A stretch of 50,273 nt of DNA, from positions 1 through 50,273 of the forward strand of contig NZ_CATNVD010000025.1 of assembly GCF_951230155.1 (NCBI RefSeq), written 5' to 3'. The stretch comes from Parablautia sp. Marseille-Q6255. Its GTDB lineage: Bacteria; Bacillota; Clostridia; Lachnospirales; Lachnospiraceae. Of this stretch, positions 144-21,003 are shown one piece after another (within the stretch, counting starts at the first letter, position 1; every line of letters begins with the position of its first letter). Under the pieces are notes generated by a model that worked only from the letters and a program-made list of their open reading frames with translations, did no database searches and had not been told where the DNA came from. Made by a program: the position numbers and the translations under genes.

Positions 144-159
144 ATATGAGTTATTTTTT

Positions 160-693: not shown

Positions 694-770
694 TCTTATA
701 GCTCATCTTAAGCGTGTATGCCACTGCACATAGCACACTAATCGCTTGCTGATATGCGCTACCTCCCTGA

Positions 771-1010
771 TTATTTCTTCTTACACGTAGTCACAGGCAA
801 TTCATCATACATTTCTTCAAATAATTTTGTCAGATATTTTTTGAGTCAACATTGTCCACGCAAAGCATTTCTTTTGCTCCTTCATAAAGCTGTTCGGATG
901 ATGCCTCTGGCATATAAGAAAGAGCTGTTTTTGTTGGCTTTACTAATAATCTGTCATCATATATTCCACCGACAATCTTACCACGGCAATATATCAGATC
1001 GGTTCAGCCA
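771..1010 (-). pseudogene. TfoX/Sxy N-terminal-domain family pseudogene (frameshifted, 5' truncated)
   Basis: Minus-strand translation from about 997 gives LIYCRGKIVGGIYDDR, then a KPTK-A-YMPEAS segment and YEGAKEML, which match my memory of the TfoX_N domain (small proteins related to the competence regulator TfoX/Sxy). The frame ends at a TGA near 833, but the neighbouring frame continues at once with LTKLFEEMYDELP and a lysine-rich tail to a TAA at 771-773, exactly what the family has next. One missing base near 833-836 explains this. The 5' end is also broken: a stop lies just before the homology and no start or ribosome binding site is seen. It lies directly downstream of the permease gene on the same strand. 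Confidence 0.65.
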
Positions 1011-1063
1011 ACTAATAGCTGACTGAACTGTCTGACAAAACCTGGCAACGCAGTTACCTATTT

Positions 1064-3963: not shown

Positions 3964-4086
3964 TTTTGCTGGTCTCCTTTCATCTGTTTATCTGTTTTTC
4001 AAGGCATTTAGATATATCCCTTGTGGTATTTCTTTTGCGTATGATATACCTTTACAATAAACAGTATAGCAAACGAAAATTACAAC

Positions 4087-5939: not shown

Positions 5940-6071
5940 AGCTCATTTACACCTTTCTCTTTTATATTTGTCGGACTAACTAATGAGATTCAATCAGATA
6001 TACTTCACCCACAGCAAATCGGTTTGCTCTCTTATGAATTTTCCCTTACAAGCAAACTTCTTTTATTTTAC

Positions 6072-6100
6072 ATTATACCAAACACAAGTGACAGTTTAAT
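6072..6100 (-). promoter_or_regulatory. extended -10 promoter for the two-component/ABC unit
   Basis: The minus strand has TGG directly before TATAAT (ATTATACCA on the plus strand, 6072-6080), an extended -10 element, about 135 bases before the regulator start. The -35 region near 6095-6100 is weak, which fits dependence on an activator. No clear regulator-binding dyad was recognised. Confidence 0.5.
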
Positions 6101-6177
6101 GACTGGTTTTTGAAATCATTCCAGTAAATCTGATAACGTCCTCCATTTCATTATGTTTTAACTCGTTCTACCTCTCA

Positions 6178-6228
6178 AAATGAAAAACAGGACACGATAG
6201 TTCTCTTATATAAACCACCGCGTCCTGT
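6178..6228 (-). terminator. intrinsic terminator, minus strand
   Basis: On the minus strand ACAGGAC-G-CG pairs with CG-T-GTCCTGT (plus-strand positions 6219-6228 and 6187-6196, one wobble), followed by TTTTTCATTTT. It would end leftward transcription coming from the 6.2-7.1 kb remnant region before it reaches the regulator promoter. Between 5940 and 6337 I see only this, the promoter at 6072 and a possible gene remnant. Confidence 0.5.
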
Positions 6229-6235
6229 ATTTATT

Positions 6236-6340
6236 CTAACTTGCAAAGCCCCTGGCTCCATCTAAGAAATATGTTCCATTTGTCTGTAGTTTCCTGGGCC
6301 GCATAACTGACCGCATTTCTTCTACTGTTATATTTCTTTG
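6236..6340 (-). pseudogene. possible C-terminal gene remnant
   Basis: A minus-strand frame from about 6340 to a TAG at 6236 encodes RNITVEEMRSVMRPRKL and then TNGTYFLDGARGFAS, ending directly before the terminator at 6178-6228. The spacing stop-then-terminator is what a real 3' end looks like, but the upstream part overlaps the XRE gene on the other strand, so only a fragment can remain. Family not recognised. Confidence 0.25.
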
Positions 6341-6631
6341 CAGAAACGCATAAAGCAGTTGATGGAGGAACGTGGCTGGACAGATTACCGTCTGGCAAAA
6401 GAAGCAAACCTCTCTCACTCCACAGTTACAAATATGTTCAACAAGAACAATGCACCTACGTTTCCAACTTTAGAGGCAGTATGCAGGGCATTTGGTATTA
6501 CACTGGCACAGTTTTTCACTGAAGATGGAGAATCTCCAATAACTGAAGAACAGCAAAAACTATTTTCGACATGGAGTACACTCACGGATGATCAGAAGCG
6601 GCTCTTGCTTGATTTAATGAATACGATGTGA
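6338..6631 (+). CDS. XRE-family HTH regulator, 97 aa, atypical start
   Basis: Small cytoplasmic DNA-binding protein. The Cro/CI-type helix-turn-helix covers about residues 3-60 (RIKQLMEERGWTDYRLA, then NLSHSTVTNMFN, then PTLEAVCRAFGITLAQFF), followed by a short acidic tail and a C-terminal helix. Relatives of this family usually begin a few residues earlier. Here the frame is closed by a TGA at 6308, and the only usable starts are TTG at 6338 or ATT at 6332, without a good ribosome binding site. The gene may have lost its true start at a recombination junction and may be poorly expressed. It is followed by a strong terminator. Confidence 0.7.
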   Translation: MQKRIKQLMEERGWTDYRLAKEANLSHSTVTNMFNKNNAPTFPTLEAVCRAFGITLAQFFTEDGESPITEEQQKLFSTWSTLTDDQKRLLLDLMNTM

Positions 6632-6671
6632 AAAGCATGTTGATTCTGCTGAAGGAACAACGTGCTTTTTT
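6632..6671 (+). terminator. intrinsic terminator after the XRE gene
   Basis: AAAGCATGTTG (6632-6642) pairs with CAACGTGCTTT (6658-6668, one G-U), followed by a T-run to 6671. It begins immediately after the XRE stop codon. Confidence 0.75.
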
Positions 6672-6740
6672 CGTTTTAACAATCTCGTCAACTCCCCGCC
6701 GTTTTCACAGTAGACCAGTTCCCACTTACCCGTAAAATGA

Positions 6741-6789
6741 AAAAATCCGGGAACCCGAACCCGTCCTCTGACAAGCCCCGGCTCCCGGA
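6741..6789 (-). terminator. intrinsic terminator, minus strand
   Basis: On the minus strand TCCGGGAGCC pairs with GGTTCCCGGA (plus-strand arms 6746-6755 and 6780-6789, one wobble), followed by TTTTTTC. It lies about 30 bases downstream of the minus-strand stop codon at 6821-6823, as expected for a short transcription unit starting at the promoter near 7062. Confidence 0.6.
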
Positions 6790-6820
6790 AATCCCTTGTT
6801 TTCTACACTTTTTCGCTATT

Positions 6821-6955
6821 CTATTCTTTGACTTTTGACATCAGTACCACAGTCTCCACATGGCACGATACGTCCTGATTGATGTCAGTTTTCGGGAACC
6901 GATCCAGACTAATGTAGACTGTAGCAAAATATCTCCGTTTGTTTGCGGAAACATA
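6821..6955 (-). pseudogene. short C-terminal-like fragment, resembles the end of a 23S rRNA uracil methyltransferase
   Basis: A 44-codon minus-strand frame ends at TAG 6821-6823 with LDRFPKTDINQD then CHVETVVLMSKVKE. The neighbouring frame just upstream contains VDMFPQT. In RlmCD/RumA-type enzymes a DMFP-x-T motif is followed closely by HVE-x-V-x-L near the C-terminus, so this could be a broken or duplicated 3' end of such a gene. No ATG starts the frame. The rest of 6672-7230 holds only the promoter, palindrome and terminators listed separately; no intact gene is seen. Confidence 0.3.
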
Positions 6956-7030
6956 TCAACAAATTCTGTAGCAAAAAAGTATTAATACAATTCGCATCCA
7001 TATCACAGTCTGAACCTCGCCTGTCCACGG

Positions 7031-7047
7031 AAAAAGTTCAACTTTTT
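7031..7047. promoter_or_regulatory. 17-bp palindrome, possible operator
   Basis: AAAAAGTT, one central C, and AACTTTTT are perfect 8-bp inverted arms. The site lies 15 to 31 bases downstream of the TATAAT box of the promoter at 7062-7090, where a repressor would block transcription. Confidence 0.4.
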
Positions 7048-7061
7048 TATTCGTTTCTACT

Positions 7062-7090
7062 ATTATAGTGATTCCAACATAAAAGTCAAA
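7062..7090 (-). promoter_or_regulatory. sigma-A type promoter, minus strand
   Basis: TTTGAC (minus, 7085-7090) and TATAAT (minus, 7062-7067) are separated by exactly 17 bases. It reads away from the RhuM gene into the remnant region and would give a transcript of about 300 bases ending at the terminator at 6741-6789. No complete gene is seen in that transcript. Confidence 0.6.
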
Positions 7091-7230
7091 TTTAATGAAA
7101 AACTGCCATCGCCTCAACCTTGTCCTTTCTTCCTACAAAGAACAGGTCAACGGCTATTTTTCGCCCCGACTGATGCCCCAACTCCCATGCACTCGACCTT
7201 GGCAAGCTAAAAATCTTAATGGCGATACTA

Positions 7231-8277
7231 CTACTTCTTCGCATTCTCTTCCAGTTCCAGCATGTACTTATCAAAGTCAGACATAAATAATCTGTCCTGA
7301 ATCACGCGGTATTTTTCAAATTCGGTCTCCGCTTTTGCCTTTGCAATCTCCGCTGTGATTTTGCCTGCATCCTGAAGAATCTCTCTGTCATCTGCCATCA
7401 GGAATAAATCCAAACGCTTTGACCAGTCTTCCATTGTCATTGGAATATGACGTTCTGCACGGTCTTCTGCCAAATCCAAATATGCAGATACAATACGCTC
7501 TAATGAACGCATTTCCTTCTCTGAAAGATAATTCTTCGCAATGCTGACATCGCTTTTTACAATCTTTCCTTCAGGAGCTGCTGCCCATGTAGTTAATCCC
7601 ATATGTGGCTTATCAGCATCGGCCCGCTCGTAAATCAACTCCGCCGCTGTGTGTCCATGAACCGCATAATGCATCTTGTTTTGAACCTTTGCAAAGAACT
7701 GCTTTGTTGTTTTTGCTGTTCGGTCATAATCAAGAGCTGTTGCATAGATGTCTGTTATCTTCTGATAGAATCTACGCTCAGAGAGACGGATTTCACGAAT
7801 TTGCTCAAGCAAACGGTCAAAGTATTCTACTGTAAGCACAGAGCCACCATTTTTCAGGCGTTCATCATCCATGACCCAACCTTTGATGGTATAATCCTTC
7901 ACGATGCCATTGGCCCACTTGCGAAACTGTACTGCTCGCTCATTATTAACCTTGAATCCAACCGCAATAATCATTTGAAGATTATAATGCTTTGTATCAC
8001 GAGTCACCTGACGTGAACCTTCGGTTTGAACTATCCGGAAATTCCGGATAGTTGCCTCTTCCTCAAGTTCTGAGTCGGAATAAATCTTCTTAATATGCTC
8101 ATTGATTGTACGAACATCTACATCATACAATGTGGCCATCATCTTCTGTGTCAGCCATATATTCTCATCCTCATAGCGCATCTCAATACTGTCCTGCTGA
8201 TCACCCACAGAGGCAACATAGGTCAGGTATTCCGCTGCACTGGAACGGATGGTTACTTCGTCTTTTTTCTTTTTCAA
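7231..8277 (-). CDS. RhuM-family (Virulence_RhuM) protein, 348 aa
   Basis: The N-terminal two thirds match the RhuM family as I remember it: ENIWLTQKMMATLYDV, then INEHIKKIYSD, RNFRIVQTEG and HYNLQMIIAVGFKVN, with GWVMDDERLK further on. The family was named after a Salmonella pathogenicity island gene, but in most bacteria it accompanies type I restriction-modification and other defence genes; its biochemical activity is not established. The start is TTG at 8277, preceded by AAAGGAGG inside a perfect palindrome (GGAGGCCTCC), which might modulate translation. It is the last gene of the defence run, 31 bases after the DUF262 gene. Confidence 0.85.
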   Translation of the reverse strand: MKKKKDEVTIRSSAAEYLTYVASVGDQQDSIEMRYEDENIWLTQKMMATLYDVDVRTINEHIKKIYSDSELEEEATIRNFRIVQTEGSRQVTRDTKHYNLQMIIAVGFKVNNERAVQFRKWANGIVKDYTIKGWVMDDERLKNGGSVLTVEYFDRLLEQIREIRLSERRFYQKITDIYATALDYDRTAKTTKQFFAKVQNKMHYAVHGHTAAELIYERADADKPHMGLTTWAAAPEGKIVKSDVSIAKNYLSEKEMRSLERIVSAYLDLAEDRAERHIPMTMEDWSKRLDLFLMADDREILQDAGKITAEIAKAKAETEFEKYRVIQDRLFMSDFDKYMLELEENAKK

Positions 8278-8308: not shown

Positions 8309-10375
8309 TTATTCTGCCTGTGCATCAAAGGATTGTTTCACAATTTCCATGATTTGATCCAATTCATCCTGATGCTCCATGAACAATTCTACATCGCCAT
8401 TTCCCCAACGTCCTAAACCGGTAATATCTTTACAAATACCGTTAGGATCATTAATCTCTGAAAACTTCATATTAATCGAGATACGCAATCTTTGTTTCTG
8501 AAAAACAATATCAACAAAATTAGTATCCAGTTTATAGGCAACATACAACTTTTTATATTCCTTCTTAACCGCAGGGGATAAGTTCATAATACGCTTATCT
8601 AAAGACTCGAACAGTATTCTTGTAAAAGCATTCACATCATACGTTTCCAATGAATACTTCTGCACTGCTTTTTCTTCTACTTGATATGGCGCAAGTTCTG
8701 CGGCTGTTAAAGTTGGATATGGCCAAATAGATTCTGCTTTCTTTGCTAATTCGTTTGCTCGCTCTTGGATATGTTTTTCATTCCACTTATTTTGCAAAAC
8801 CACATATTTATTAAGCCTAAGTGCACTTTCTTTGAATCCACCCGGCATATCCATCTTTTCCAAGAAAGGCCTGTCACTCATTTCAGAATTATATGCAGTC
8901 AAAGTAAGATTGCCAATTGTATGTAAATACTTTTTCTGAACCTCTTGCCACTCAGTACCAAGATCAGCTTGCCACTCTAAAGAAAGATTTTTGTTCTGCG
9001 GCATAATATGCTCAATGGTGTAATTCTCTATTATAATTGGAGCTTTGTTTTCAAAGTTTTCCAAACGACTAAGAATATAATTTCTAGCACGCATATTATA
9101 AACATCACGGCTTACAAATGCACCTTCAAACTTATCGTTATCTGGGAATTCTTTATATGTATCCTGCACCACGAAAAATGCCTTAACAGAATTCAGATAA
9201 TCATCTGGTCTAATATAATTCTTCAATGTTGCAAAGGTTTTGTTCATTGAGTTGGTCGGGATCTCACAAATTGCACGTCTCAGAACATAGCTAATACAAA
9301 GCCTCAGAATTTCCTTTAGTTCATCTGATGTAATTAGTCCTTCTACGCAATCATGATGAATTTTCAGTAAGAATGGGTAAGATACTTCCATTCTTAAATC
9401 GATAATGTCTTCATATAACTTCTTTAAATTCGTATCAGTATTTCGCTTGAATACAATGTTTGTATAATATTTTGCATATTCAAGCAAATCTTGACATAAT
9501 TCTCTGATAGTTCCAAATTCACAATTCAAATGATACAATTTGAATTCTTCATATACGCGTCCTTGCTTTGGAATGCGAGAAAGTTTCATGGTCAAGTAAT
9601 GGCGGAAGAAAGCATCCATTACTGTTCCTTGCGTTTCATAAATAAACAGCTGTTCCATAGGCCGCCAAAGATGTTCATATACATAAGTTTGTTCTGATGG
9701 CTCTAGCCCCATCAAAACAGAGTTACGAATCAAATCAGATTCAGAAAGTTCCTTACCGGTAGAATTCAAACTTTCAAAAATTGCCTGTGCATCGTCAACA
9801 GCACGATCTAATGTGATATTAACAATTTGTAATTTTCCAATTGACTCATATACCTCTGCAGGCTGAATTTCTTTATCAGCTAGCTTGTTAGCAAAAAAAT
9901 TGTAATTATCAATCAGTCTTGATCTAGTGCCTTCTGCAATTGGTTTTTCCTCAACGAGGCTTATAAGAATATCTCTATCTGTTTCAGTCAGCAGTAACTT
10001 ATATCGTTCATCACCACTTTCATACTCGTTTTTTAGAAGCATATTATCTATACGACGAGCATTGATTGTTGTGTCACTTGGATTCTTTATTGCATAATCG
10101 CGCAAAGCCAGAAGAAGCAGCGTTAAGGTAGTCATTCGCTGTTGGCCGTCAATAATCATATATTTCTGAACACCTGTTGGCATTGCCTGTTCAGCAATAT
10201 TAACAATAGAACCTACAAAATGGCCCACTTTACCTTTTCTCTGCATCTCTACAATATCGTTCCAAAGTCGTTTACACTGATCTATATCCCAGCTGTAGAA
10301 TCTCTGATAAACCGGAATCAAGAATTGCTTATTTCCGTTCAATATCTCATAAATATTGCCTTTACGTGCATCCAT
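8309..10375 (-). CDS. DUF262/DUF1524 (GmrSD-like) protein, 688 aa
   Basis: The N-terminal DUF262 domain (ParB/sulfiredoxin-like NTPase fold) is seen in LIPVYQRFYSWD near residue 20 and the diagnostic IDGQQRMTTL near 76. The C-terminal DUF1524 HNH-like nuclease domain is seen in YTIEHIMPQN near 455 followed by HTIGNLTLT and an asparagine-containing NSEMSDRPF. This architecture is that of single-chain relatives of GmrSD, the type IV restriction enzymes that cleave modified (for example glucosylated) phage DNA. It starts 12 bases after hsdR, so it is translationally close to the type I system. Inference: it broadens protection to phages whose DNA modification blocks HsdR. Confidence 0.85.
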   Translation of the reverse strand: MDARKGNIYEILNGNKQFLIPVYQRFYSWDIDQCKRLWNDIVEMQRKGKVGHFVGSIVNIAEQAMPTGVQKYMIIDGQQRMTTLTLLLLALRDYAIKNPSDTTINARRIDNMLLKNEYESGDERYKLLLTETDRDILISLVEEKPIAEGTRSRLIDNYNFFANKLADKEIQPAEVYESIGKLQIVNITLDRAVDDAQAIFESLNSTGKELSESDLIRNSVLMGLEPSEQTYVYEHLWRPMEQLFIYETQGTVMDAFFRHYLTMKLSRIPKQGRVYEEFKLYHLNCEFGTIRELCQDLLEYAKYYTNIVFKRNTDTNLKKLYEDIIDLRMEVSYPFLLKIHHDCVEGLITSDELKEILRLCISYVLRRAICEIPTNSMNKTFATLKNYIRPDDYLNSVKAFFVVQDTYKEFPDNDKFEGAFVSRDVYNMRARNYILSRLENFENKAPIIIENYTIEHIMPQNKNLSLEWQADLGTEWQEVQKKYLHTIGNLTLTAYNSEMSDRPFLEKMDMPGGFKESALRLNKYVVLQNKWNEKHIQERANELAKKAESIWPYPTLTAAELAPYQVEEKAVQKYSLETYDVNAFTRILFESLDKRIMNLSPAVKKEYKKLYVAYKLDTNFVDIVFQKQRLRISINMKFSEINDPNGICKDITGLGRWGNGDVELFMEHQDELDQIMEIVKQSFDAQAE

Positions 10376-10387: not shown

Positions 10388-13300
10388 TTACCTCTTTTCT
10401 CCATAAGAAACCGTATCCTCTGCCACTTTGCTTAGTTCTATTTCAGATACATATTTATAGAGTTTTTCCTCTTTTCGTGGTTCCACATTATCCGTCCAAA
10501 GCTCACACTGACTAATTACTGTGCTTATTGCAAAATCATAGTCTTCCGGCGGATACTTATATTTCTTAAGGAGTCGCTTAACCATCTTACGCATCTGTGC
10601 TCTAGCAGTTTCTTTCTTCTGCCAATCGATAGTGCGATTCTTACGAAGCATTTCTGTAAGTTCTCTTGTCAGAGCAATCAATTCATCATTCTTATAAAAA
10701 TCCTTGATATGCTCAGGTTTTGTAAGAGCATCATAAAATGCAAGTTCTTCTTGTGAAAGTCCCAGTTTCTGACCATTCTTATAGAGATTTGCAATCTCTT
10801 CTGCAGTTTTCAGAAGTTCTTTAATAACCTCTTCATTGGTGATTAGTCCGTTATAATAAGAGTTCATCAGTTGTGCTATTTTCTCCGAAAATTTTTGTGA
10901 TTGTACCACATTTGTTCTCTTATAGAGAGCCACTTGCTCAGCCATAAGTTTTTTCAAAATCTCGACAGCTATATTTTTTTCCTTCATTCTAGAGATTTCG
11001 TCCAGGACTGCTGGATCAAACAGGCTGAAATTTTCACCGCCACTCTTGCTGCTGTCAAATAAGCTGATGACACCTTCGCTCTGTACTGCCGCTTTCAAAA
11101 GTTCATTGATTTGATCATTGATCTCAGTAAGCGACAAACTTTTTCCACCTGTTCCACCATACGTGATCTTAATAACCGTAGAACGCAAAGCCTCCATATA
11201 AGCCGCTTCATGCCGTTCCTGCTCTGTTGTCATACTGGAACAGAGCGAGTGTGATTGTTTCAAAAGCATGGCTTCCTTCAAGAACAAATCTTTTCTTTCT
11301 GGTATACTTGCATCGAGAATAAAGTTTACGCCACCCGTAATAAGCTTAGCCATTGTAAGTGGAGAGCCACCTACAAATCCGCTAAAATCAAAGCCATGCA
11401 ATAAATCTTTGCAAACTTGTAGCTTTTCCTGAAACTTCGGATATGCCATCTTTGCAATGTTCATATCACCGTATTTAGACTGATCACGTTTCGTATATTC
11501 ATTCATTGCAGCCTTTAAGGCCGAGGCAATTCCAACATAGTCTACGATCAATCCGCCCTCTTTATCCTTGAATACACGGTTAACACGGGCAATAGCCTGC
11601 ATCAAGTTATAACCATGCATCGGCTTATACACATACATGGTAGCCAAAGAAGGTACATCAAAACCGGTGAGCCACATATCAACTACAATGGCAATCTTCA
11701 TCGGGTCATTGTTGTCTTTAAACTTCCTTGCGAGCTCTTCTTTGTGCGATTTAGTTCCGATGATCTCTTTCCAATCTTCCGGATCGTTGTTGCCGCCAGT
11801 CATAACTACACCGACTTTATTCGTCCATTCAGGTCTAATTTTCAAGATTCGGCGATAGATTTTCATTGCAATCGGACGAGAATACGCCACAATCATGGCT
11901 TTACCCGTCAGAAGATTTGCTCTATATTTTTCGTAATGTTCAACAATATCATCACAAAGAGATTCTATTGTTGAATCAGCTCCCAGTACACTTTCCATCT
12001 GACCAAGCATTTTTTTACTCTTCTCGATTGTTTGTGCATCGGACTGCTGCTCTAAGACATCATAAGTAGAATCAATTAACGCCAATGTGTTCTCATCCAA
12101 CTTCAAATGAACAACTCGGCTTTCATAATAAACCGGACAAGTAGCACCATCTTCCACGGCCTGTGTCATATCATAAACATCGATATAATCACCAAAAACT
12201 TCACGAGTGTTTCTGTCTTTGGCTGAAATCGGTGTACCAGTAAATCCGATAAAGGTAGCATTCGGCAACGCGTCATGGATAATACGAGCATTACCAATTA
12301 CAGTATGCGCTTCCTTTTCACCGTTTTCATTCTCTGACATAACGATTTTTTCATCAAAACCATACTGCCCACGATGTGCTTCATCTGCCATAACAACAAT
12401 GTTTCTGCGTTCTGACAAAGCCTTCTCTCCACGTTCAAACTTGAACATTGTTGTAAATATAATTCCATTTGCACTTCTGCCATCAAGAAGTGACTTCAAA
12501 TGTTCTTTGCTCTCTGCCTGTACCGGTGTCTGACGCAAGAAATCTGCGCATTGTGAGAACTGTGCATAAAGCTGATCATCCAGATCAATACGGTCTGTCA
12601 TAACTACGATAGTTGGGCTATCTAATGCATCTTGCAACAAATGTGCATAGAATACCATCGACAATGACTTACCAGAGCCCTGTGTATGCCAGAACACGCC
12701 GCCTTTACCATCGGTCTTAGTGGCTACCTTCGCCTTTTCAATTGCCTTGCGTACTGCAAAATACTGATGATATCCAGCTAATACTTTGAATCGACTATTG
12801 CTGACGCCTGAGAAAAGAATAAAATTTTTCAAAATATCAAGTAGACGTTCCTTTTGGAACATACCCTCATAGAAGGTTTCAAAGGAAGCATACGCAGTAT
12901 CTTCGTAATTACCGTCTTTGGTTTTCCATTCCATAAAACGATCTAATCCGGAGGTAATAGTTCCGGCCTTATTCGTAGACAAGTCGCTAATTACACAGAT
13001 TGCATTGTAATAAAAGATAGATGGAATATCCTGCATATAATTGCGAATCTGATGATAGGCATTCTCAGCTCCTACCTCGTCCTTAGCCGGGCTCTTCAAT
13101 TCCATCAAAACAAGAGGCAATCCATTAATAAATAAAATAATATCTGGACGACGGTTATTTCCGTTTTCTAAAAACGTAAACTGATTTACCACATAGAAAG
13201 AGTTGTTCTTTACGTTGGCGTAATCAATCAAACGTACAATAGATGATTGCTCCTCGCCCTTTACAAAGAACTTAACCGTGATACCATTTTGCAGATAATC

Positions 13301-13555
13301 CATGAAAATGATGTTCTTCTGCAACAGACTTCCAGTATCAAAATTCTTCAATTTGGCTAGTGCCTCATCTATAGCTTCTACAGGCAGACCACGGTTGATA
13401 CGCACCAAGCTATCTCTCAGAATAGAGTCCAGAAGCGGACTGGTATAATCTCTATCAAAATCCGGAGCGTAGAGGTGGTCATAGCCCATGTTTTCAAACA
13501 ATTCAATGATTGCTTGTTCGTATGTATCTTCTGTAAATAAACTCGGCATATTCAA
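10388..13555 (-). CDS. hsdR: type I restriction endonuclease, R subunit, 1055 aa
   Basis: Motor and nuclease subunit of the type I restriction complex; with HsdM and HsdS it translocates and cuts unmethylated DNA. The N-terminal nuclease domain has PDIILFINGLPLVLMELK (the PD...ExK pattern) near residue 137. The helicase part follows with TQGSGKSLS (Walker A, near 290), VVMADEAHRGQ (DEAH box, near 385) and GFTGTP, then QAIARVNRVF in the second RecA-like domain (near 660), and a helical C-terminal region. Length is normal. The start ATG at 13555 has AGGAGG directly upstream, only about 30 bases beyond the start of the inverted hsdS segment. Confidence 0.95.
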   Translation of the reverse strand: MNMPSLFTEDTYEQAIIELFENMGYDHLYAPDFDRDYTSPLLDSILRDSLVRINRGLPVEAIDEALAKLKNFDTGSLLQKNIIFMDYLQNGITVKFFVKGEEQSSIVRLIDYANVKNNSFYVVNQFTFLENGNNRRPDIILFINGLPLVLMELKSPAKDEVGAENAYHQIRNYMQDIPSIFYYNAICVISDLSTNKAGTITSGLDRFMEWKTKDGNYEDTAYASFETFYEGMFQKERLLDILKNFILFSGVSNSRFKVLAGYHQYFAVRKAIEKAKVATKTDGKGGVFWHTQGSGKSLSMVFYAHLLQDALDSPTIVVMTDRIDLDDQLYAQFSQCADFLRQTPVQAESKEHLKSLLDGRSANGIIFTTMFKFERGEKALSERRNIVVMADEAHRGQYGFDEKIVMSENENGEKEAHTVIGNARIIHDALPNATFIGFTGTPISAKDRNTREVFGDYIDVYDMTQAVEDGATCPVYYESRVVHLKLDENTLALIDSTYDVLEQQSDAQTIEKSKKMLGQMESVLGADSTIESLCDDIVEHYEKYRANLLTGKAMIVAYSRPIAMKIYRRILKIRPEWTNKVGVVMTGGNNDPEDWKEIIGTKSHKEELARKFKDNNDPMKIAIVVDMWLTGFDVPSLATMYVYKPMHGYNLMQAIARVNRVFKDKEGGLIVDYVGIASALKAAMNEYTKRDQSKYGDMNIAKMAYPKFQEKLQVCKDLLHGFDFSGFVGGSPLTMAKLITGGVNFILDASIPERKDLFLKEAMLLKQSHSLCSSMTTEQERHEAAYMEALRSTVIKITYGGTGGKSLSLTEINDQINELLKAAVQSEGVISLFDSSKSGGENFSLFDPAVLDEISRMKEKNIAVEILKKLMAEQVALYKRTNVVQSQKFSEKIAQLMNSYYNGLITNEEVIKELLKTAEEIANLYKNGQKLGLSQEELAFYDALTKPEHIKDFYKNDELIALTRELTEMLRKNRTIDWQKKETARAQMRKMVKRLLKKYKYPPEDYDFAISTVISQCELWTDNVEPRKEEKLYKYVSEIELSKVAEDTVSYGEKR

Positions 13556-13581
13556 CCTCCTGTATTTTTCGTTATGTTTCT

Positions 13582-14262
13582 ATGGTAAACAAGAATTTAG
13601 AGCAGCAAGCAATGGCAATTTTTAATAATGCAATAGAACAGTCAAAGTCTGTTACTTATGTTGAGTTAGGATCATTGGCTGATGTTAAAGGTGGAAAAAG
13701 GCTTCCTAAAGGAGCAAATTTGATGAGTATACCTAATTCACACCCTTATATTCGTGTTCGAGACCTCAATGATGTCGTATTTGCCAGTCTTTCAGCAAAT
13801 TACGAGTATGTTGATGATGAAACACAAAAGACGATTTCACGTTACATTACGACAACAGGTGACGTATTGATATCTATCGTTGGAACAATTGGATTAACAG
13901 CAATTGTAGATAAATCATTGAACATGGCAAATTTAACGGAAAATTGTGTTAAGGTCACGAACCTACATGGCATCTCCCCAGAATACCTTCTCTTATATCT
14001 TCGTTCTCAACACGGATCTGAAGAAATTAAAAAAGGTACTGTTGGAGCTGTTCAAGCAAAATTACCAATTAAAAATATTCAGGCGCTCAGTGTTCCGTTG
14101 TTACCACAATCTGACTTGCAGCCATTAAATGATACATTAAAAGTACTTTTTAATCAGCTGTCCATAAATGTTGCAGAATCCAAGTGTTTAACAGATATTA
14201 GAGATTCATTATTACCAAAGCTGATGTCCGGCGAATTGAATGTCTCCAACCTTGACCTCTAA
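13582..14262 (+). CDS. hsdS: inverted second half of hsdS (target recognition domain 2 and C-terminus), 226 aa
   Basis: This is the only plus-strand gene in the defence run. It encodes a type I specificity subunit from the central conserved helix (NKNLEQQAMAIFNNAI) through a second target recognition domain (LADVKGGKRLPKGA, YIRVRDL, GDVLISIVGTIG) to the C-terminal conserved helix ending RDSLLPKLMSGEL. It has no convincing ribosome binding site. Residues 3-6 lie in a 15-bp sequence (13586-13600) repeated in inverse orientation near the 3' end of the other hsdS half. Flipping the segment would join the halves in frame into about 397 residues, the normal HsdS length. In the present orientation it is probably silent. 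Confidence 0.88.
   Translation: MVNKNLEQQAMAIFNNAIEQSKSVTYVELGSLADVKGGKRLPKGANLMSIPNSHPYIRVRDLNDVVFASLSANYEYVDDETQKTISRYITTTGDVLISIVGTIGLTAIVDKSLNMANLTENCVKVTNLHGISPEYLLLYLRSQHGSEEIKKGTVGAVQAKLPIKNIQALSVPLLPQSDLQPLNDTLKVLFNQLSINVAESKCLTDIRDSLLPKLMSGELNVSNLDL
13586..13600 (+). repeat. left inverted repeat of the hsdS inversion segment
   Basis: TAAACAAGAATTTAG, identical to the reverse complement of 14267-14281. It encodes part of NKNLE in hsdS in both places and in the same codon phase, so recombination between the copies keeps the reading frame. Confidence 0.85.
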
Positions 14263-14798
14263 GCCACTAAATTCTTGTTTATCCTATCATTGAGTGCAAT
14301 TTTATCATCAAACGCCTTCAGGAATGAGCCGATTTTTTCTTGTTCAATCAATGGTGGAACATCAATTTCAAGATTCTTTACCACATCCGTCTGCACACGC
14401 TGTCGTCCAGATGAGCCGACCATAGATTTTATCGCTGGTTCTCTTACTTCCGGGCTGCAAACGAGATAGTACAAGTAGTCTTTATCAGCGATTCCTTCTT
14501 TTGCTCGGAATACGATATATTCCGTTGAGCCAAAGCCAACTTCTCCATCATTTAAGATTGAAACCTGAGCTGTTTTTCCGTTTTCTAAACACGGCGTAAT
14601 TCGTGCCATAATTGTATCTCCATTACGGAACTTCGTACCACCAGAAAAACATTCTTCAACATAATATGGAATATCGCGATAAAATGGGCGGAGCACATCC
14701 ATAGGGATTTTCTTAGCTATAGCACCTTTTTTTATTGTTTCTCTCGGATTGAAATCTGCAATATCAGAGAGCTTCTTTTTTGTCCATTCAGATTTCAT
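14259..14798 (-). CDS. hsdS: first half of hsdS (target recognition domain 1), 179 aa
   Basis: Encodes the N-terminal half of the DNA-specificity subunit of the type I system: WTKKKLSDIADFNPRE, a proline-rich TRD (KKIPMDVLRPF, GGTKFRNGDTIMARITPCLENGK, GFGSTEYIVFR), then VPPLIEQEKIGSFLKAFDDKIALNDRINKNL of the central conserved helix (written here in overlapping pieces: VPPLIEQEKIGSF and FDDKIALNDRINKNL). The frame then ends after two extra codons. I choose ATG 14798 with GGAGG upstream; a frame to 14822 lacks support. A half-size HsdS could in principle dimerise to give a palindromic specificity, but the normal reading is a switched-off gene. Confidence 0.87.
   Translation of the reverse strand: MKSEWTKKKLSDIADFNPRETIKKGAIAKKIPMDVLRPFYRDIPYYVEECFSGGTKFRNGDTIMARITPCLENGKTAQVSILNDGEVGFGSTEYIVFRAKEGIADKDYLYYLVCSPEVREPAIKSMVGSSGRQRVQTDVVKNLEIDVPPLIEQEKIGSFLKAFDDKIALNDRINKNLVA
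14267..14281 (-). repeat. right inverted repeat of the hsdS inversion segment
   Basis: Reverse complement of 13586-13600, perfect over 15 bp. It lies within codons for NKNL of the first hsdS half. Confidence 0.85.
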
Positions 14799-14862
14799 AC
14801 TCAATCGCCTCCAGTTTTTCACGAATTACAAATTCGTTTATTCTTTCTTGTCCTGTATTCAT
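14788..14862 (-). CDS. 24-codon open frame before hsdS, possible leader peptide
   Basis: ATG at 14862 opens a 24-codon frame (MNTGQERINEF, then VIREKLEAIEYEI) that overlaps the hsdS start by 11 bases. Its end resembles the HsdM C-terminus (KKLGAIGYEL), so it may be a remnant of a duplicated hsdM tail or a translational coupler. No ribosome binding site of quality is seen. Confidence 0.25.
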   Translation of the reverse strand: MNTGQERINEFVIREKLEAIEYEI

Positions 14863-14865
14863 AAG

Positions 14866-15006
14866 CTAACTCTCACTTTCAGTTTCATCTTCATCCGTTC
14901 TATAAGCATCTTCAACCGAATAAGTAGCATCATCCAGCATCTTAACATCTATGCCTACGTTGATTGTGTCCTGTGTTTTTCCTCCATCTTTCAATTCGTA
15001 TATAAA
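14866..15006 (-). pseudogene. in-frame continuation of the PIN gene after its TAG
   Basis: This stretch is open for 46 codons in the PIN frame. The encoded pattern of alternating hydrophobic residues followed by an acidic tail looks like a beta-rich C-terminal end, continuing naturally from IEYYIEAAL before the TAG. No start codon with a ribosome binding site serves it alone (a TTG occurs at codon 5). The simplest reading is the cut-off C-terminus of the PIN protein. Confidence 0.45.
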
Positions 15007-15915
15007 CTACAAAGCTGCTTCAATATAATATTCAATTCCATTCTCGTCCGAATTCAAGGATTCAATATTATCAATGCTAATCAAATGAGCTGTAGTTGAA
15101 GTAATCAACCGTCCTTTTTCAACAAGACCAAAGTCTCGCTCTATTATCTGCACAGAAAAATCTCCAGAATTTAACCAATCAACAATTTCCTTATTTTCAT
15201 CATAATCTTCAATTGGTTGATACGAATATTTGTCAATTTCCTTTGCCCACGCTTCTAACTGCACCTTAACTTCATTTTCATTTTTGCATATGAACAGTGA
15301 TGAATCTGATACATTTTCTGCAAACTCCTTTAGCAGAAATTCTCCAAAAGCATTATCTTTGGAATAGTATATGATTTTTGAGTTGCGGTGTTTTAATGCA
15401 AATTCCAAAACACTTTCCCATAACAATGCATCCTTAAATCCTTTATCAGACTTTTTATCTTTTCCTTCAAAAGGAGGTAATTTACTAAATGCACGATTCA
15501 CTATACTTTCAAATCTATCATTAGAAGCAATTGGAATTTCTATAACGCTATTTCCTCTTCCTGAAATCTCCTTCTTATATTCCTCAATCTTAATTTTTAT
15601 ATATTCTGGATAATTTATTGTAGGATTCTCCTGTATAGAATACTCAGGAAACTGTTTCTTTGATATTGTACTTTTATATGTAACAAGCAATTCATCATGC
15701 TTTTCTATAATCTGCTTCTCCATTTCACTCCAGACAACTGATGGGATAGCTATGGTTACATATTCATATATATCAAGTTGTTCAATCATACCAACTACAT
15801 GTTCAAATGTTGCATTGAAGCTAAAGGTTGTGAAATCTGCCTTCTTTTCATATGCTTGAAACAACGCATTCGTATCAAAAATCAAACAATACGTTATTTC
15901 ACTGCTTGAGCTCAT
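15007..15915 (-). CDS. PIN-fold nuclease-like protein between hsdM and hsdS, 302 aa
   Basis: The N-terminus CLIFDTNALFQAYE places an aspartate where PIN domains have their first metal ligand. Further acidic positions fit the fold: WSEMEKQ (near residue 83), GFKDALLWE (near 160) and YYSKDNAFG (near 190). PIN domains cut RNA in toxins and RNA-processing enzymes; here the operon position suggests a defence accessory, possibly an RNA-cleaving back-up. ATG 15915 overlaps the hsdM stop by 17 bases, indicating coupled translation. The TAG stop at 15007-15009 is followed in the same frame by 46 sense codons (YELKDGGKTQDT, VGIDVKMLDD, EDAYRTDEDE) to a TAG at 14866, so the protein may be truncated by a point mutation. 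Confidence 0.75.
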   Translation of the reverse strand: MSSSSEITYCLIFDTNALFQAYEKKADFTTFSFNATFEHVVGMIEQLDIYEYVTIAIPSVVWSEMEKQIIEKHDELLVTYKSTISKKQFPEYSIQENPTINYPEYIKIKIEEYKKEISGRGNSVIEIPIASNDRFESIVNRAFSKLPPFEGKDKKSDKGFKDALLWESVLEFALKHRNSKIIYYSKDNAFGEFLLKEFAENVSDSSLFICKNENEVKVQLEAWAKEIDKYSYQPIEDYDENKEIVDWLNSGDFSVQIIERDFGLVEKGRLITSTTAHLISIDNIESLNSDENGIEYYIEAAL

Positions 15916-17407
15916 ATCCGATCGCCCCCAGCTTCTTCCTGATTTCGTCCTCCAGTTCATGCGACTTTGCAAACATTTCCGCAAGTTCAGATGTTAACCG
16001 ATCCATCTTTTCTTCAAAGGGCTCATCGTCATCTTCCTGCTCTTCAATACCCACATAGCGTCCAGGTGTAAGTATATAATCTTGTTTCTCAATTTCAGCT
16101 GTATCCGTAACAGCACAAAATCCCTTAATATTTTCAAGTGTTCCGTCAACAAAAGCTTCGTAGGTTTCTGAAATCTTATTGATGTCTTCATCCGTCAGCT
16201 CACGAAGCTTTCGGCTCACCATTGTTCCCATCTTTCGAGCATCAATAAATAAAGTCTTTCCCGGTTGTTTTTTCTGCTTATTGATAAACCAAAGTGAAAC
16301 TGGAATCTGCGTTGTATAAAAAAGCTGAGTAGGCATTGCAACAATACACTCAATTAAATCAGCATTGATAATATTCTTACGAATATCACCCTCTCCGCCT
16401 GATTGAGAAGAAAGGGAACCATTTGCTAATACCATACCAATACGGCCTGCTGGTGCAAGATGAAAAATCATATGCTGAAGCCATGCAAAGTTGGCATTTC
16501 CTGCTGGTGGTGTTCCGTATTTCCATCGCTGATCTTCTTTTAGTTTATCCAATCCCCAATCGGAAAGGTTAAAAGGGGGATTAGCCATAATATAATCTGC
16601 TCTCAACGTTGGATGACGATCATCAAGGAATGTATCTGCCGCATAGGTTCCAAGATCAGGCTCAATTCCACGAATTGCAAGATTCATCTGCGCCATCTTC
16701 CATGTAGTAGGATTTGAGTCCTGACCATAGATAGAAATATTGCTGATATTACCACTGTGATTCTCAACAAACTTAGCAGACTGAACAAACATACCTCCTG
16801 AACCACAACAAGGGTCATATACTCGTCCCTTGAAAGGCTTCAAAACTTCCACCAAAGTGCGTACTACGCATGAAGGTGTAAAGAATTCACCGCCACGTTT
16901 TCCCTCTTGTTCAGCAAACATAGAAAGACAATATTCATAGGTACGGCCCAAGATATCTTTTTCACTACCGTGTTCAATCATCTGGATGTTGGTGAACAGG
17001 TCCACAACATCACCAAGTCTACGCTTGTCCAGCTCCGGACGTGCAAAGTTCTTAGGCAAAATATCCTTCAAACGCTTATTTTCTTTTTCGATGGCACGCA
17101 TGGCATCATCGATCACCGTTCCGATTTCCGGAGTATGTGCTTTTGCTGCAATCTCACTCCAACGTGCACCTGCTGGTACAAAGAAGATACCCTCAGAAGT
17201 ATATTCGTCGATATCCTCCTCGAATCCATCGCCTTCTTCAACAAGTTCCTGATACTTATCATCAAATCTATCTGAGATATACTTCAAAAAAATCAATCCC
17301 AGAACAACGTTCTTATATTCTGATGCATCCATATTACCACGAAGCACGCAGGCCGCATCCCATATTTGTTTTTCAAATCCAATATCGGCTGTATTTTTAT
17401 CTGCCAT
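15899..17407 (-). CDS. hsdM: type I restriction-modification DNA methyltransferase, M subunit, 502 aa
   Basis: Adenine-N6 methyltransferase that, with HsdS, protects host DNA and forms the core of the type I restriction complex. The N-terminal HsdM domain (FEKQIWDAACVLRGNMDASEY) is followed by the Rossmann-fold methylase with motif I DPCCGSGGMF near residue 195 and the catalytic NPPFN near 278. The C-terminal tail carries a helical region that ends KKLGAIGYELKQ. ATG 17407 is chosen because AGGAGG lies just upstream; the frame extends to 17434 without such a signal. The gene overlaps the PIN gene downstream and follows the XRE gene by 41 bases. Confidence 0.95.
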   Translation of the reverse strand: MADKNTADIGFEKQIWDAACVLRGNMDASEYKNVVLGLIFLKYISDRFDDKYQELVEEGDGFEEDIDEYTSEGIFFVPAGARWSEIAAKAHTPEIGTVIDDAMRAIEKENKRLKDILPKNFARPELDKRRLGDVVDLFTNIQMIEHGSEKDILGRTYEYCLSMFAEQEGKRGGEFFTPSCVVRTLVEVLKPFKGRVYDPCCGSGGMFVQSAKFVENHSGNISNISIYGQDSNPTTWKMAQMNLAIRGIEPDLGTYAADTFLDDRHPTLRADYIMANPPFNLSDWGLDKLKEDQRWKYGTPPAGNANFAWLQHMIFHLAPAGRIGMVLANGSLSSQSGGEGDIRKNIINADLIECIVAMPTQLFYTTQIPVSLWFINKQKKQPGKTLFIDARKMGTMVSRKLRELTDEDINKISETYEAFVDGTLENIKGFCAVTDTAEIEKQDYILTPGRYVGIEEQEDDDEPFEEKMDRLTSELAEMFAKSHELEDEIRKKLGAIGYELKQ

Positions 17408-17716: not shown

Positions 17717-19549
17717 TCAATATACATCATGAAGGAATCCATATCGTCCTTCATTAAGTTTCTTTGTAAATGTGATGACATTGGCTCCGAGAGCCTCAAA
17801 ATCAATATTACTCGGAACGTGATCTGTATTTTCCACAATAATCAACTGTCCCGTCAAATGATGAACAAAATACTTAAACAGACCATCCTTCATGCTATCG
17901 GGTAATTCAGTATCATTTTCATCAAATCCATGCAATGGAGTATCTATAATCAAGAAATCTGCATTGTACTTTGCGTGATCATGAAAATAGTTTCTAAAGG
18001 CAAGAGCTACAACTGTATTCAAGTAAGAGTGATATCCCTTACCGTGAGAAGCCTTTGTCTCACCATTTACTTCTATATCAAAACTGCTTAAATTAAATCG
18101 AGCACCAGTCAAATTCAAGTACTGACATTCTCTTAATATCGAATCCATATCCTCGCTTACAGTCGTCTGGAATTCAGTATCAAAATATTCTTTTGGATGA
18201 TATTCGATTGCCTTCTCTTCTTCATTTTCTGCAATGTCATATCTAGTCAAATCCTGTTCCCAGCCTTTTGCATATTGAACAATAAGATCGACCTCATTTG
18301 ATAACTGAATATAACTTCTGTATGTCTCTATAGTCTTTTCTATTTCTGATGCCTGTGGCTTCAGTTCTTGTTGTATGAGCTTCTCAATGTCAGCTCTCTG
18401 TTCCTTGAGTTCTCTCAATTTTTCTTCGGCAGCAGCTTTTTCCACCTGAACATCTTTTTCTGATGCTGCCAACCCATCCATTTGAGAAACTATTCGAGAC
18501 AATTCACCACGAGATGCCTCAATGTATGATTTCTTTGCACGAGGAGTAATCTTTCCATCGCAGAACGGACAAGTTGAAACCTTCGGTGCTGTGCTCATAT
18601 TTTGCTCGCCATCAACAATGAAAGTCAAGCGTTGAATATCTGCTCTATATTGACTACGCAGATGTCCATATCTTGAAAGAAGCACTTCGCATTCTGTTAC
18701 TTTTGCTTCTTGTTCCATAATATCCGCAAGCAGTTTCTGGCTGGTTTCAATTGCAGCAGAAATAGATGATTCGGTTTTCTGTAAAGATTCCACCATCTCA
18801 CGTAGTTGTTCTTCTACATTAGCATCGTCCAAATTTTCTATTTGAACTGCCAGTTCTTTCTGACGCTGATTTGCTTCCCGAATTTTCTGATTCACATAGT
18901 CATGAACTGCTTCCTTACGAGCCTTCTTTATCTCTTTTTGGGTCTGAGCATCATGTTCACTAAAATCTCTACCAGTAAGCAGGAATAATAGAGACGAAAG
19001 AAATAATGTTTTTTCGTAGGTCGCAACTGGCTCAAACAGTGGATCTGTTTTATCAATTCTCTCTTCCTTAATGTAATACAAGCGAAGAAGATTTTCCCAA
19101 GTCATACGTTTCTTCTCAAAGCGCATATTACCAGGCACTTCAGGTTCACCATCGATGCCTAACAGTTTCATCATCACTAAATTAAGGACCGGCTTCGGCT
19201 TTTTTACATTCTTGCCTGGCTTTTTAACGACATATATCCCGTTCTCAATTTCTTCAGAATCCGCAACCACCTCTACTTGTCCAGAGCCAACTTTACGTGA
19301 AAGAATCACGTCACCATATTGTTCTGTGCCAATAACAACGGACGCTGAATCATATCCTGATGATTCTTTGAATGGGTTTTTTAGTTTATCGTAATTTCCA
19401 CCGAACACGAACTCCATACACTTCAGGACGCAGGACTTTCCTGTATCCGAACGTCCCTGTATTATATTCAAACCGGAAGTAAACTCGACAATGGCATCTT
19501 CTTTCGAATCACTTCTGGCGATTATTCTTTTTATATAAAAACCAGCCAT
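17717..19549 (-). CDS. ABC-3C-like ATPase with Rad50-type coiled coil and CxxC hook (DUF3732-like), 610 aa
   Basis: SMC/Rad50-type ATPase. Walker A is GRSDTGKS near residue 32 in a LNIIQGRSDTGKSCVL context. Two coiled-coil arms (about 210-290 and 340-425) flank CPFCDGKITPRAKKSY near 330, which resembles a zinc-hook half-motif. An ABC-signature-like GKGYHSYLN lies near 500, and Walker B is FLIIDTPLHGF near 537 with the histidine/aspartate region after it. The two preceding genes fit the middle and C-terminal-domain components of ABC-three-component conflict systems as described by comparative genomics; the ATPase is expected to sense phage or plasmid DNA structures and trigger an effector. Activity here is inferred. 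ATG 19549 lies 4 bases after the middle-component stop and has GAGG upstream. Confidence 0.8.
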   Translation of the reverse strand: MAGFYIKRIIARSDSKEDAIVEFTSGLNIIQGRSDTGKSCVLKCMEFVFGGNYDKLKNPFKESSGYDSASVVIGTEQYGDVILSRKVGSGQVEVVADSEEIENGIYVVKKPGKNVKKPKPVLNLVMMKLLGIDGEPEVPGNMRFEKKRMTWENLLRLYYIKEERIDKTDPLFEPVATYEKTLFLSSLLFLLTGRDFSEHDAQTQKEIKKARKEAVHDYVNQKIREANQRQKELAVQIENLDDANVEEQLREMVESLQKTESSISAAIETSQKLLADIMEQEAKVTECEVLLSRYGHLRSQYRADIQRLTFIVDGEQNMSTAPKVSTCPFCDGKITPRAKKSYIEASRGELSRIVSQMDGLAASEKDVQVEKAAAEEKLRELKEQRADIEKLIQQELKPQASEIEKTIETYRSYIQLSNEVDLIVQYAKGWEQDLTRYDIAENEEEKAIEYHPKEYFDTEFQTTVSEDMDSILRECQYLNLTGARFNLSSFDIEVNGETKASHGKGYHSYLNTVVALAFRNYFHDHAKYNADFLIIDTPLHGFDENDTELPDSMKDGLFKYFVHHLTGQLIIVENTDHVPSNIDFEALGANVITFTKKLNEGRYGFLHDVY

Positions 19550-19553
19550 ATCG

Positions 19554-20000
19554 TTACCTCCTCAAAAATTCTGTCGATGTATTACTTATTGTTTTCATAA
19601 TTTTCTGCTCGCTTTGTCCTTTGAAATGTTCCACCGTCTTTAGAGCCAACATCTTATAATTATTTGCATATTCTGATTTCATTTTTCCTGCCACAGTTTT
19701 GCCAACTACAGAAATAGAATATTGAAATCCATTCTGTCTACGTTTTACAGATACCAGACCATCAAGCACCAACGATTTCATCGTGCTTTGCATCATTCCT
19801 CTTCGTGCAGCAAATTCACTAAGACCGAACTCATTCTCTCCATGCAGTGCCATATCGCTGATACCAAAGTACTTACTGTAAATTGTAATGAAATCATAAT
19901 TCGCTATTCTATCCAGCGTCATCTGTTCATCTTCCGAAACAGACAAAAGCAATAGTATTCTAAGGCTAGATTCAAATGTGGTGTTAAATATTTTATTCAT
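19554..20000 (-). CDS. ABC-3C-like middle component (winged-helix), 148 aa
   Basis: An alpha-helical protein with a predicted winged helix: FESSLRILLLLS, MTLDRIANYDFITIY, FAARRGMMQSTMKSL, DGLVSVKRRQNGFQYSIS (wing) and VVGKTVAGKM. The layout matches the wHTH middle component of ABC-3C systems, thought to link the ATPase to the large C-terminal-domain protein. ATG 20000 overlaps the preceding gene's stop by 8 bases and the following ATPase starts 4 bases later, so the three are tightly coupled. The DNA-binding potential is inferred from the fold pattern only. Confidence 0.75.
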   Translation of the reverse strand: MNKIFNTTFESSLRILLLLSVSEDEQMTLDRIANYDFITIYSKYFGISDMALHGENEFGLSEFAARRGMMQSTMKSLVLDGLVSVKRRQNGFQYSISVVGKTVAGKMKSEYANNYKMLALKTVEHFKGQSEQKIMKTISNTSTEFLRR

Positions 20001-21003
20001 CAATATCCACCCACGAATTTATAGTTCCGTCATTCACCAGAATATGGCAAATACCTTTCTTGTGTACATTCTTCATAAGGCTTTTTATCCTATCAATCGA
20101 AGAAGTGTCTAATGTCGTATTGGTGATTTTATCAAGGACCGCTTGCAATCGCTGGTACCCATTATCGTAATCCTGAAGATATGTACTTTCTATACCATCG
20201 TAGGCATCCTTTTTTAGCGCTTCAAATTTTTCTTCTCCGCCATCAAATACATCCCTTACGGAATGATGCAGCCATTCTGCCTCATAATAAGATGTCCTTT
20301 GTGAAGTGAAATCTCTACGGTATCTCCCCGGCAACGTTCCAATAACATCTGGAGTGACGGCTTGGGCAAGCGCATCTGCATACGCTGCACAAAGAGCATT
20401 AACATACGGCATTTCTTCCGGTTTAATATCTTTTTCAGGAGCAAGTGCTGTCGGTAGCTCTAAAACCTCATCTCCAACATGTAGCTTTCCGTCTTTTACA
20501 TAAACTGTGCTTACTTCAACCGTTACATATCTATTTCCATAGGAATCAATATGAACCGGAAGCGTCGTATCAATGTATCCTTTATTAGATGCCATAGCAT
20601 CAATAAAGCGATAGAAAAGCTCTGCACACACTTCATCGATATTATCAGCTTCAAGGTTTCCTTGTATTCCAAATTCCTTTAGCTTGCCGATCAATTCTTC
20701 TCTAGCTTCATAGTCCGCTGTTTGGAAAGCATCAACAAACTTACTTTTGCTAAATCGGCTCTGAATAGTGCGTGCGTCATCCTGCTTTATTTTTCTATTC
20801 TGAGCACCAGAATATATCTTAGATAGAGTTGAAACATCTTTACTCGATAGTGGATTAAAGTCATCGTTTTCATCTAACTTTTCTTCATCATCCGTCATCG
20901 GGTCACGAATAACGAGATTCGTCAGATACAGCACATACTCCTGCTGTGTCACACTACAACCGATATATCGATGCATCAATTGTACGAAATCACTAAATCT
21001 CAT
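19993..21003 (-). CDS. ABC-three-component-like C-terminal-domain protein, 336 aa
   Basis: First gene of the defence run. No catalytic motif is obvious. The protein is acidic and helical, with YSGAQNRKIKQDDARTIQ near residue 65, a central region (about 120-180) with VDSYGNRYVTVEVST-like beta segments and a C-terminal part containing RRDFTSQRTSYYEAEWLHHS and DRIKSLMKNVHKKG. In ABC-3C systems the corresponding protein carries the conserved CTD, often fused to a variable effector; here no effector fusion is seen, so the effector may be supplied by another gene of the island. ATG 21003 has GGAGG six bases upstream. The long leader contains phased repeats at 21031-21068. Confidence 0.7.
   Translation of the reverse strand: MRFSDFVQLMHRYIGCSVTQQEYVLYLTNLVIRDPMTDDEEKLDENDDFNPLSSKDVSTLSKIYSGAQNRKIKQDDARTIQSRFSKSKFVDAFQTADYEAREELIGKLKEFGIQGNLEADNIDEVCAELFYRFIDAMASNKGYIDTTLPVHIDSYGNRYVTVEVSTVYVKDGKLHVGDEVLELPTALAPEKDIKPEEMPYVNALCAAYADALAQAVTPDVIGTLPGRYRRDFTSQRTSYYEAEWLHHSVRDVFDGGEEKFEALKKDAYDGIESTYLQDYDNGYQRLQAVLDKITNTTLDTSSIDRIKSLMKNVHKKGICHILVNDGTINSWVDIDE

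Follow-up and report, generated by a model that had tools for sequence, protein, structure and literature searches.

The window, by which we mean the whole 50,273-nucleotide contig analysed here (Parablautia sp. Marseille-Q6255), carries a type I operon in which hsdM, two halves of hsdS and hsdR stand together (Table 1). The stop codons of the two hsdS halves overlap on opposite strands, and hsdR starts 36 bp outside arm 1 of the inverted repeat. Both halves match the Methylase_S family PF01420, with E-values of 1.1e-18 and 3.4e-11, and the reading frames of hsdM and hsdR are open throughout. From the substitutions that separate them from their closest relative, both hsdS halves look to be under purifying selection (dN/dS of 0.070 for the N-half and 0.136 for the C-half, one pairwise value each). 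Scans of the window with Rfam at the gathering threshold and for tRNA genes gave no matches.

Table 1. Features of the split hsdS locus (positions in the window)
Feature	Position	Strand	Remarks
hsdR	10388..13549	-	HSDR_N, SWI2_SNF2; ATG at 13549, AGGAGG upstream
hsdS C-half (TRD2 + C-terminal conserved helix)	13582..14262	+, inverted relative to operon	PF01420
Inversion site, arm 1	13586..13600	+	TAAA-CAAGAA-TTTA(G); NKNL codons of C-half
Segment standing where relative L102 has 2.9 kb (C-half, recombinase, second N-half, second C-half)	13611..14267	.	homology resumes at outer sites
hsdS N-half (TRD1 + first part of central helix)	14259..14798	-	PF01420; 179 aa from ATG 14798; ends NKNL-VA-stop
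Inversion site, arm 2	14267..14281	-	sequence same as arm 1; NKNL codons of N-half
PIN_12-domain gene, between hsdM and hsdS	15007..15984	-	Pfam domain
hsdM	15899..17407	-	PF02384, PF12161

The operon is part of a defence island. Upstream of it (17717-21003, minus strand) lie genes of Lamassu type, LmuB, LmuC and LmuA according to PADLOC, with the Pfam domains ABC-3C MC2 and CTD6, and downstream are GmrSD (8309-10375) and RhuM/PDC-S05 (7231-8277). Prophage genes adjoin the island and extend on the plus strand to near the contig end (22540-50273), among them those for DUF2800, DNA_pol_A, D5_N, the small and large terminase subunits, portal, capsid and tail.

The two arms, of sequence TAAACAAGAATTTAG, are identical over 15/15 bp on opposite strands, and 20-nt arms around this 15-bp core repeat are 90% complementary. 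Each arm supplies the NKNL codons of its own hsdS half in that half's frame. With up to one mismatch allowed, the sequence occurs twice in the 3.79-Mb draft assembly, both times at hsdS. Inversion in silico of positions 13586-14281 (696 bp) generated one frame of 397 amino acids, 177 from the N-half and 220 from the C-half. A preliminary description of this DNA had proposed perfect repeats in the same codon phase, this very 397-residue product and a single partner, and it was right on all three counts: PF01420 finds one N-half and one C-half in the assembly. The same search found no full-length hsdS elsewhere; the presence of one is what the description would have taken as a sign that this copy is a dead fragment. 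Repeat length by itself is modest evidence for a switch, uncommon but not decisive: a 15-bp inverted repeat with arms 200-3000 bp apart was present in 8 of 400 first-order Markov resamples of the 3-kb region, and the whole window holds four matching 15-mer pairs at that spacing.

The joined 397-residue protein was used to query about 5.8 billion proteins, and the best 120 of 7749 matches were examined. P0001, encoded on a 1.62-Mb contig, is identical to the joined HsdS of the window at 397/397 residues, and fourteen more full-length relatives (P0002-P0015, 94-98% identity) are among these best 120 of 7749. The same split layout, with a 15-bp site of its own, was found in a second genome, the same-genus Lachnospiraceae MAG SUG1168 (G025; locus L055, identical to L101), and its joined product is also on record, as P0016 (397/397 identical; 9 member sequences, 8 contigs). 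Split forms are represented as well, by 226-residue C-halves (P0128 and P0155, 94-98%) and by many N-halves of exactly 179 residues at 90% identity or more. These matches are protein-level records of which genomic context forms no part; at that level both orientations occur in nature, and P0001 may derive from a four-site locus such as those described below. The preliminary description had looked to related strains for the alternative orientation, and P0001 and P0016 provide it as exact joined products. A chance origin of the arms is excluded by the combination of homologous codons in register, the same design in a second species and the existence of the predicted product.

Comparison with close relatives suggested how the single-partner layout arose. 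Locus L102, on a contig of Hominisplanchenecus murintestinalis NM72_1-8, encodes HsdM, PIN_12, HsdR and GmrSD proteins 99, 98, 99 and 96% identical to those of the window, respectively. Between the PIN gene and hsdR, it contains an N-half joined to a C-half, a tyrosine recombinase of 329 residues, a second N-half and a second, inverted C-half, with four sites of alternating orientation. In the oriented window, positions 1-3233 align with 5300-8531 of L102 at 97.5% and positions 3891-7500 with 11451-15060 at 92.0%, so that homology breaks at the first and last, outer sites. Breaks in these places would follow if two directly oriented sites had recombined and the recombinase had been lost with the DNA between them. 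The C-half of the window matches neither C-half of L102. A further four-site locus with a recombinase and a split N-half, L104, is present in Emergencia sp. 1XD21-10, with HsdM 97% and HsdR 98% identical to those of the window; we take this strain to belong to a different family than the window's host, and on such near-identity the locus seems to move between families. Precedents for the deletion have been reported in pneumococcus, where a recombinase segment is excised at the tvr locus (PMC6265443) and strain G54 lost creX in an apparent deletion (PMC6620402). The preliminary description had set the window apart from multi-cassette systems. One partner is indeed all that the window has, whereas L102, L104 and L053 carry multiple hsdS copies or partner halves, but the two kinds are really related, the window looking like a deletion product of such a system.

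The specificity cassette itself may have a separate history. The hsdS halves of the window and G025 are 91% identical whereas their HsdM and HsdR proteins are 70 and 63% identical, respectively, which indicates that the cassette moved or evolved separately. The PIN_12 gene occupies the same place in L102, L103 and L104 and is absent in G025. It was not seen in most relatives, L126 having a 24% match, and is possibly an accessory nuclease of this lineage.

A wider survey started from HsdM searches of 47 genomes of the genus (17 matched), 397 of the family (26) and 392 of the order (34), overlapping sets that each include the window's own assembly (G000). Outside G000, neighbourhoods were fetched for 10 of the 24 genus matches and for all 49 family and order matches, and 19 extra loci were taken from named genomes. 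Frames of hsdS were located by BLAST with the window's halves, a procedure that may miss distant hsdS genes. A site was counted when it had at most one arm mismatch and codons for N-x-N/H-L inside hsdS, or, for the outer arm, when it lay within 60 nt past the stop; under this rule the protein itself restricts part of the core but leaves the x codon free. In the relatives, sites of tyrosine-recombinase type, TAAA-six bases-TTTA, recur at two places: in the central helix, at the N-x-N/H-L codons, and immediately beyond the C-half's 3' end. A typical relative carries two N-halves, two C-halves and four sites, which enclose a tyrosine recombinase gene; N-halves were found both joined and split.

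The six-base cores differ from locus to locus (CAAGAA, CAATAA, CGATAA, CGAGAA, TGATAA, TGAAAA, TAAGAA, TCATAA, TCATCA and CAATCA). Thirty loci have at least two sites, 21 of them with a recombinase of at least 280 residues and nine without. A single core is used throughout in 19 of the 21 recombinase-bearing loci, a count that leaves out a palindromic self-match in L147 and in-frame matches with cores TCAACA, TCAGCA and TGAACA, whose position was judged to be other than the central-helix site; keeping the matches with these three cores would make L111, L137 and L140 mixed and reduce the figure to 16 of 21. The two exceptions, L116 and L118, are labelled Bacteroidota and differ in layout. Among the nine two-site loci devoid of a recombinase, cores are matched in seven and unmatched in L142 and L157. 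L101 and L145 duplicate L055 and L102 and were not counted (L145 is the L102 contig reached through G713), and the outer arm of L132, 212 bp past the stop, falls beyond the 60-nt rule. Strand exchange inside the core would give rise to this pattern of agreement within each locus and difference among loci, and the common ancestry of duplicated halves could add to the agreement.

Six of the matched, recombinase-less, single-partner loci have hsdR in view. Three are split (the window, L055 and L108, the latter from Ruminococcus flavefaciens 007c) and three joined (L054, L056 and L123); hsdR of L054 is in two frames, which may reflect decay. The seventh matched locus, L141, ends before hsdR. Further recombinase-less loci carry one full-length hsdS, with no second site to match. 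In L147, a related hsdS in the joined orientation (3299-4616) is broken into two same-strand frames.

Assemblies often stop at these sites. Among the 49 fetched loci, 41 had an inner-site match, as chosen by a loose rule that admits off-register matches and with L145 left out, and in 10 of these 41 the contig ends within 130 nt past the inner site, considering sites only. In L103, a 99% relative of the window, it ends 40 nt past. A 15-bp repeat is shorter than usual assembly k-mers and should not stop an assembler, so that contig ends at the sites are expected from mixed orientations. The window and L055 were assembled straight through the segment, which fits loci that are homogeneous in their samples.

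Relatives of HsdR were also retrieved from viral contigs (IMG/VR). Seven loci were obtained, of which L051 has four sites, a recombinase and the same CAAGAA core as the window. In L047 (core TCATCA, hsdM in two frames) and L048 (core TGATAA), a single-partner hsdS is in the joined form, the sites are matched and no recombinase is in view; none of these three loci entered the core counts. No matched site pair was found in the other four, and no relative of the joined HsdS among viral contigs. A megablast search of phage and plasmid records with the operon gave no match, in a comparison that may leave out records very near the window's own genome.

A search with the tyrosine recombinase family PF00589 gave 18 matches in G000, none of them on the contig that makes up the window, in agreement with the preliminary description. 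The genome-wide search that the description had proposed was run with the L102 enzyme as query and a cut-off of E 1e-20, and it revealed no hsd-type recombinase in the assembly. The hsd recombinases are 55-100% identical among themselves; the closest enzymes in G000 are three at 38-40% (L169, L170 and L171, on contigs C1, C2 and C27). These three lie in regions that look phage-like by eye, two of them near TACAAAACACGAA inverted repeats, which are unlike the hsdS site, and no TAAA-N6-TTTA site was found in the stretches fetched around them. On these grounds, they were rejected as enzymes acting on hsdS in trans; as invertase-like recombinases, two with TACAAAACACGAA, they are candidate phage invertons of the same genome. 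At the same cut-off, there were zero matches in G025, G036, G323 and G760, the genomes of the four other single-partner loci L054, L055, L108 and L123, whereas a recombinase of 63% identity is present in G032, the genome of joined single-partner locus L056, on a different contig from the locus. Neither G000 (a 40-contig draft, 95.7% complete) nor G025 (89% complete) is a full genome, and each could lack a small contig with a recombinase.

What the split state does was addressed through the predicted structure of HsdS. An AlphaFold model of the joined protein has an HsdS-like fold (mean pLDDT 78, residues 212-263 poor), and its best Foldseek matches are the S subunits 7vs4, 3okg, 1yf2 and 5ybb, with TM-scores of 0.40-0.66. 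The junction falls in the middle of a predicted helix spanning residues 150-191. The split N-half frame ends at residue 179, so that about the last dozen residues of this helix would be lost and the central conserved region left incomplete. A stop exactly two residues after NxNL is found in 20 of 27 split N-halves, and the other seven have tails of 3 to 49 residues; the short tail of the window's N-half results from the stop codon of the C-half, which lies 4-5 bp from the site on the opposite strand. Completion of HsdS in trans by a separately expressed C-half was also considered. An in-frame ATG within three codons of NxNL is present in seven of 22 inverted C-halves, including that of the window, where no Shine-Dalgarno sequence was seen before it, and this ATG was taken as incidental. 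Given the lack of a conserved C-half start, a two-chain HsdS is unlikely.

It is conceivable that the 179-residue N-half forms a homodimer which, with HsdM bound, methylates a palindromic half-site target, so that the split state would be a second specificity, but we consider this unlikely. In its favour are the recurrent ending two residues after NxNL and the recurrence of forms of exactly 179 residues, such as P0230 (30 contigs), P0242 (22 contigs) and P0296 (152 contigs), as well as reports of activity for an engineered half-HsdS (PMC6158711) and for the natural HsdS1 half of NgoAV, of 208 residues (PMC9577141). However, the engineered half is described as having the whole central region (PMC6158711), whereas the window's frame stops within helix 150-191, the conserved end may merely reflect an extended recombination site, and a quarter or so of split N-halves (the seven noted above) have other tails. 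A more far-reaching proposal, which takes the split state as a working one, with the clean half (NxNL-AA-stop) making a palindromic methyltransferase, and the recombinase-less two-site loci as reduced switches between palindromic and asymmetric specificities, operated in trans by recombinases from incoming copies of a mobile locus, appears decidedly unlikely. OFF is the likelier meaning of the split state. The preliminary description had called the locus an ON/OFF switch; an hsdS inversion switch with one partner, seen in its split state, stands, and its equation of split with OFF is partly supported, half-HsdS proteins being active elsewhere. P0296, which is 77% identical, is attributed by one source to Clostridium symbiosum and possibly comes from a culturable organism.

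The reading that we favour, and regard as probable, is that the window holds an OFF-state deletion derivative of a known inverting type I system, either stalled or in need of a recombinase in trans. An operon of hsdM, PIN gene, hsdS and hsdR, with hsdS cut at an invertible site, would have lost its recombinase, one C-half and one N-half when two sites in direct orientation recombined, so that two sites and a single partner remain. Given a recombinase, the 696-bp segment could then only flip between a full HsdS of 397 residues and the split form. The assembly would have caught the split state, most likely OFF, where HsdM and HsdR would be produced but no full HsdS. Lacking a recombinase, the locus would stay split until its cassette is replaced or a cognate enzyme comes in, perhaps on another copy of the transferred locus. 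In pneumococcus, inversion at a 15-bp repeat was reported to be 0.0% in a creX mutant as compared to 4.1%, longer repeats still inverted without creX, and xerD, xerS and SPD_0921 were reported to have no effect on inversion (PMC6620402). By analogy, the switch in the window would need its cognate recombinase, which is absent from the assembly. Some observations sit less easily with a stalled derivative. The six matched single-partner loci in both orientations, together with joined L047 and L048, are more than expected if all were long frozen, and their persisting matched cores may reflect recent loss of the recombinase or visits by an enzyme acting in trans. Moreover, the genome of L056 has its 63% recombinase, G000 and G025 are incomplete, P0001 may come from a four-site locus, and cores are not uniform in recombinase loci L116 and L118.

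The same observations bear on the alternatives. That the locus is an actively flipping ON/OFF switch, served by a recombinase encoded elsewhere, was the view of the preliminary description and draws on the matched cores in seven of nine recombinase-less loci, in both orientations, on the 18 PF00589 matches of G000 and on the recombinase of G032. It is nevertheless rather unlikely, considering the distance, phage-like surroundings and dissimilar repeats of the closest G000 enzymes, the lack of a match in G025, G036, G323 and G760, the unbroken course of the window contig across the segment, and the reported inactivity of the pneumococcal 15-bp repeat without CreX, with no effect reported for xerD, xerS or SPD_0921 (PMC6620402). 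Collapse of a true four-site locus in the draft, its outer pieces joined and the recombinase segment dropped, is suggested by the frequent contig breaks at sites in this family (10 of 41) and by the incompleteness of the draft. Yet repeats below the usual k-mer size imply that both junctions should exist in the reads, the rest of the assembly yielded neither a second hsdS piece nor an hsd-type recombinase, and the same layout appears in G025 and R. flavefaciens 007c, which makes such a collapse very unlikely. Finally, a dead hsdS fragment with a chance repeat would agree with the lack of a full-length hsdS in the assembly, but it is already contradicted by the exact joined homologue, and with both halves seemingly under purifying selection and hsdM and hsdR intact in frame, it is extremely improbable.

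Tyrosine recombinases are well-known partners of inverting hsdS loci (PMC6620402, PMC7096588, PMC7394358, PMC5903667), also in gut Firmicutes (PMC11892184). As described, the SpnIII/cod/ivr locus of Streptococcus pneumoniae (CreX/PsrA) is a type I operon with hsdS cut by inverted repeats, one of them of 15 bp, and with the recombinase in the locus, and the loss of creX in G54 is akin to the recombinase-less state of the window (PMC6620402, PMC7096588). By contrast to the window, with one partner and no recombinase, SpnIII swaps among several hsdS copies, and the conserved 10-bp core quoted for it differs from the site reported here. At SpnIV/tvr, a recombinase segment is reported to leave as a circle, producing a shortened locus; direct repeats and reintegration are described there, whereas excision from the window is deduced from comparison (PMC6265443). 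Group 145 of the hCom2 invertons, from gut Firmicutes_A and Bacteroidota, resembles the present loci by its description, with an inverton over hsdS, a tyrosine recombinase near and signs of horizontal spread (PMC11892184). NgoAV of Neisseria gonorrhoeae likewise toggles one specificity subunit between full and half forms, but according to the published accounts it does so by poly-G slippage instead of inversion, and its half is longer (208 residues) and active (PMC9577141, PMC7394358).

In the literature searched, largely outside subscription journals, we found no account that treats single-partner hsdS loci lacking a recombinase as a recurrent class. Surveys that require duplicated hsdS genes, or repeats longer than those shown to recombine (PMC7394358), are likely to miss it. 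The suggested route is that an inverting restriction system loses its own invertase through the very sites on which that enzyme acts, and ends as a switch with a single partner, found either full or split. Whether the two sites share their core may distinguish recently recombined loci (seven of the nine recombinase-less ones) from those that have drifted (two of nine). The phage resistance and the methylation of a strain would then hinge on an orientation that may go unseen in draft assemblies.
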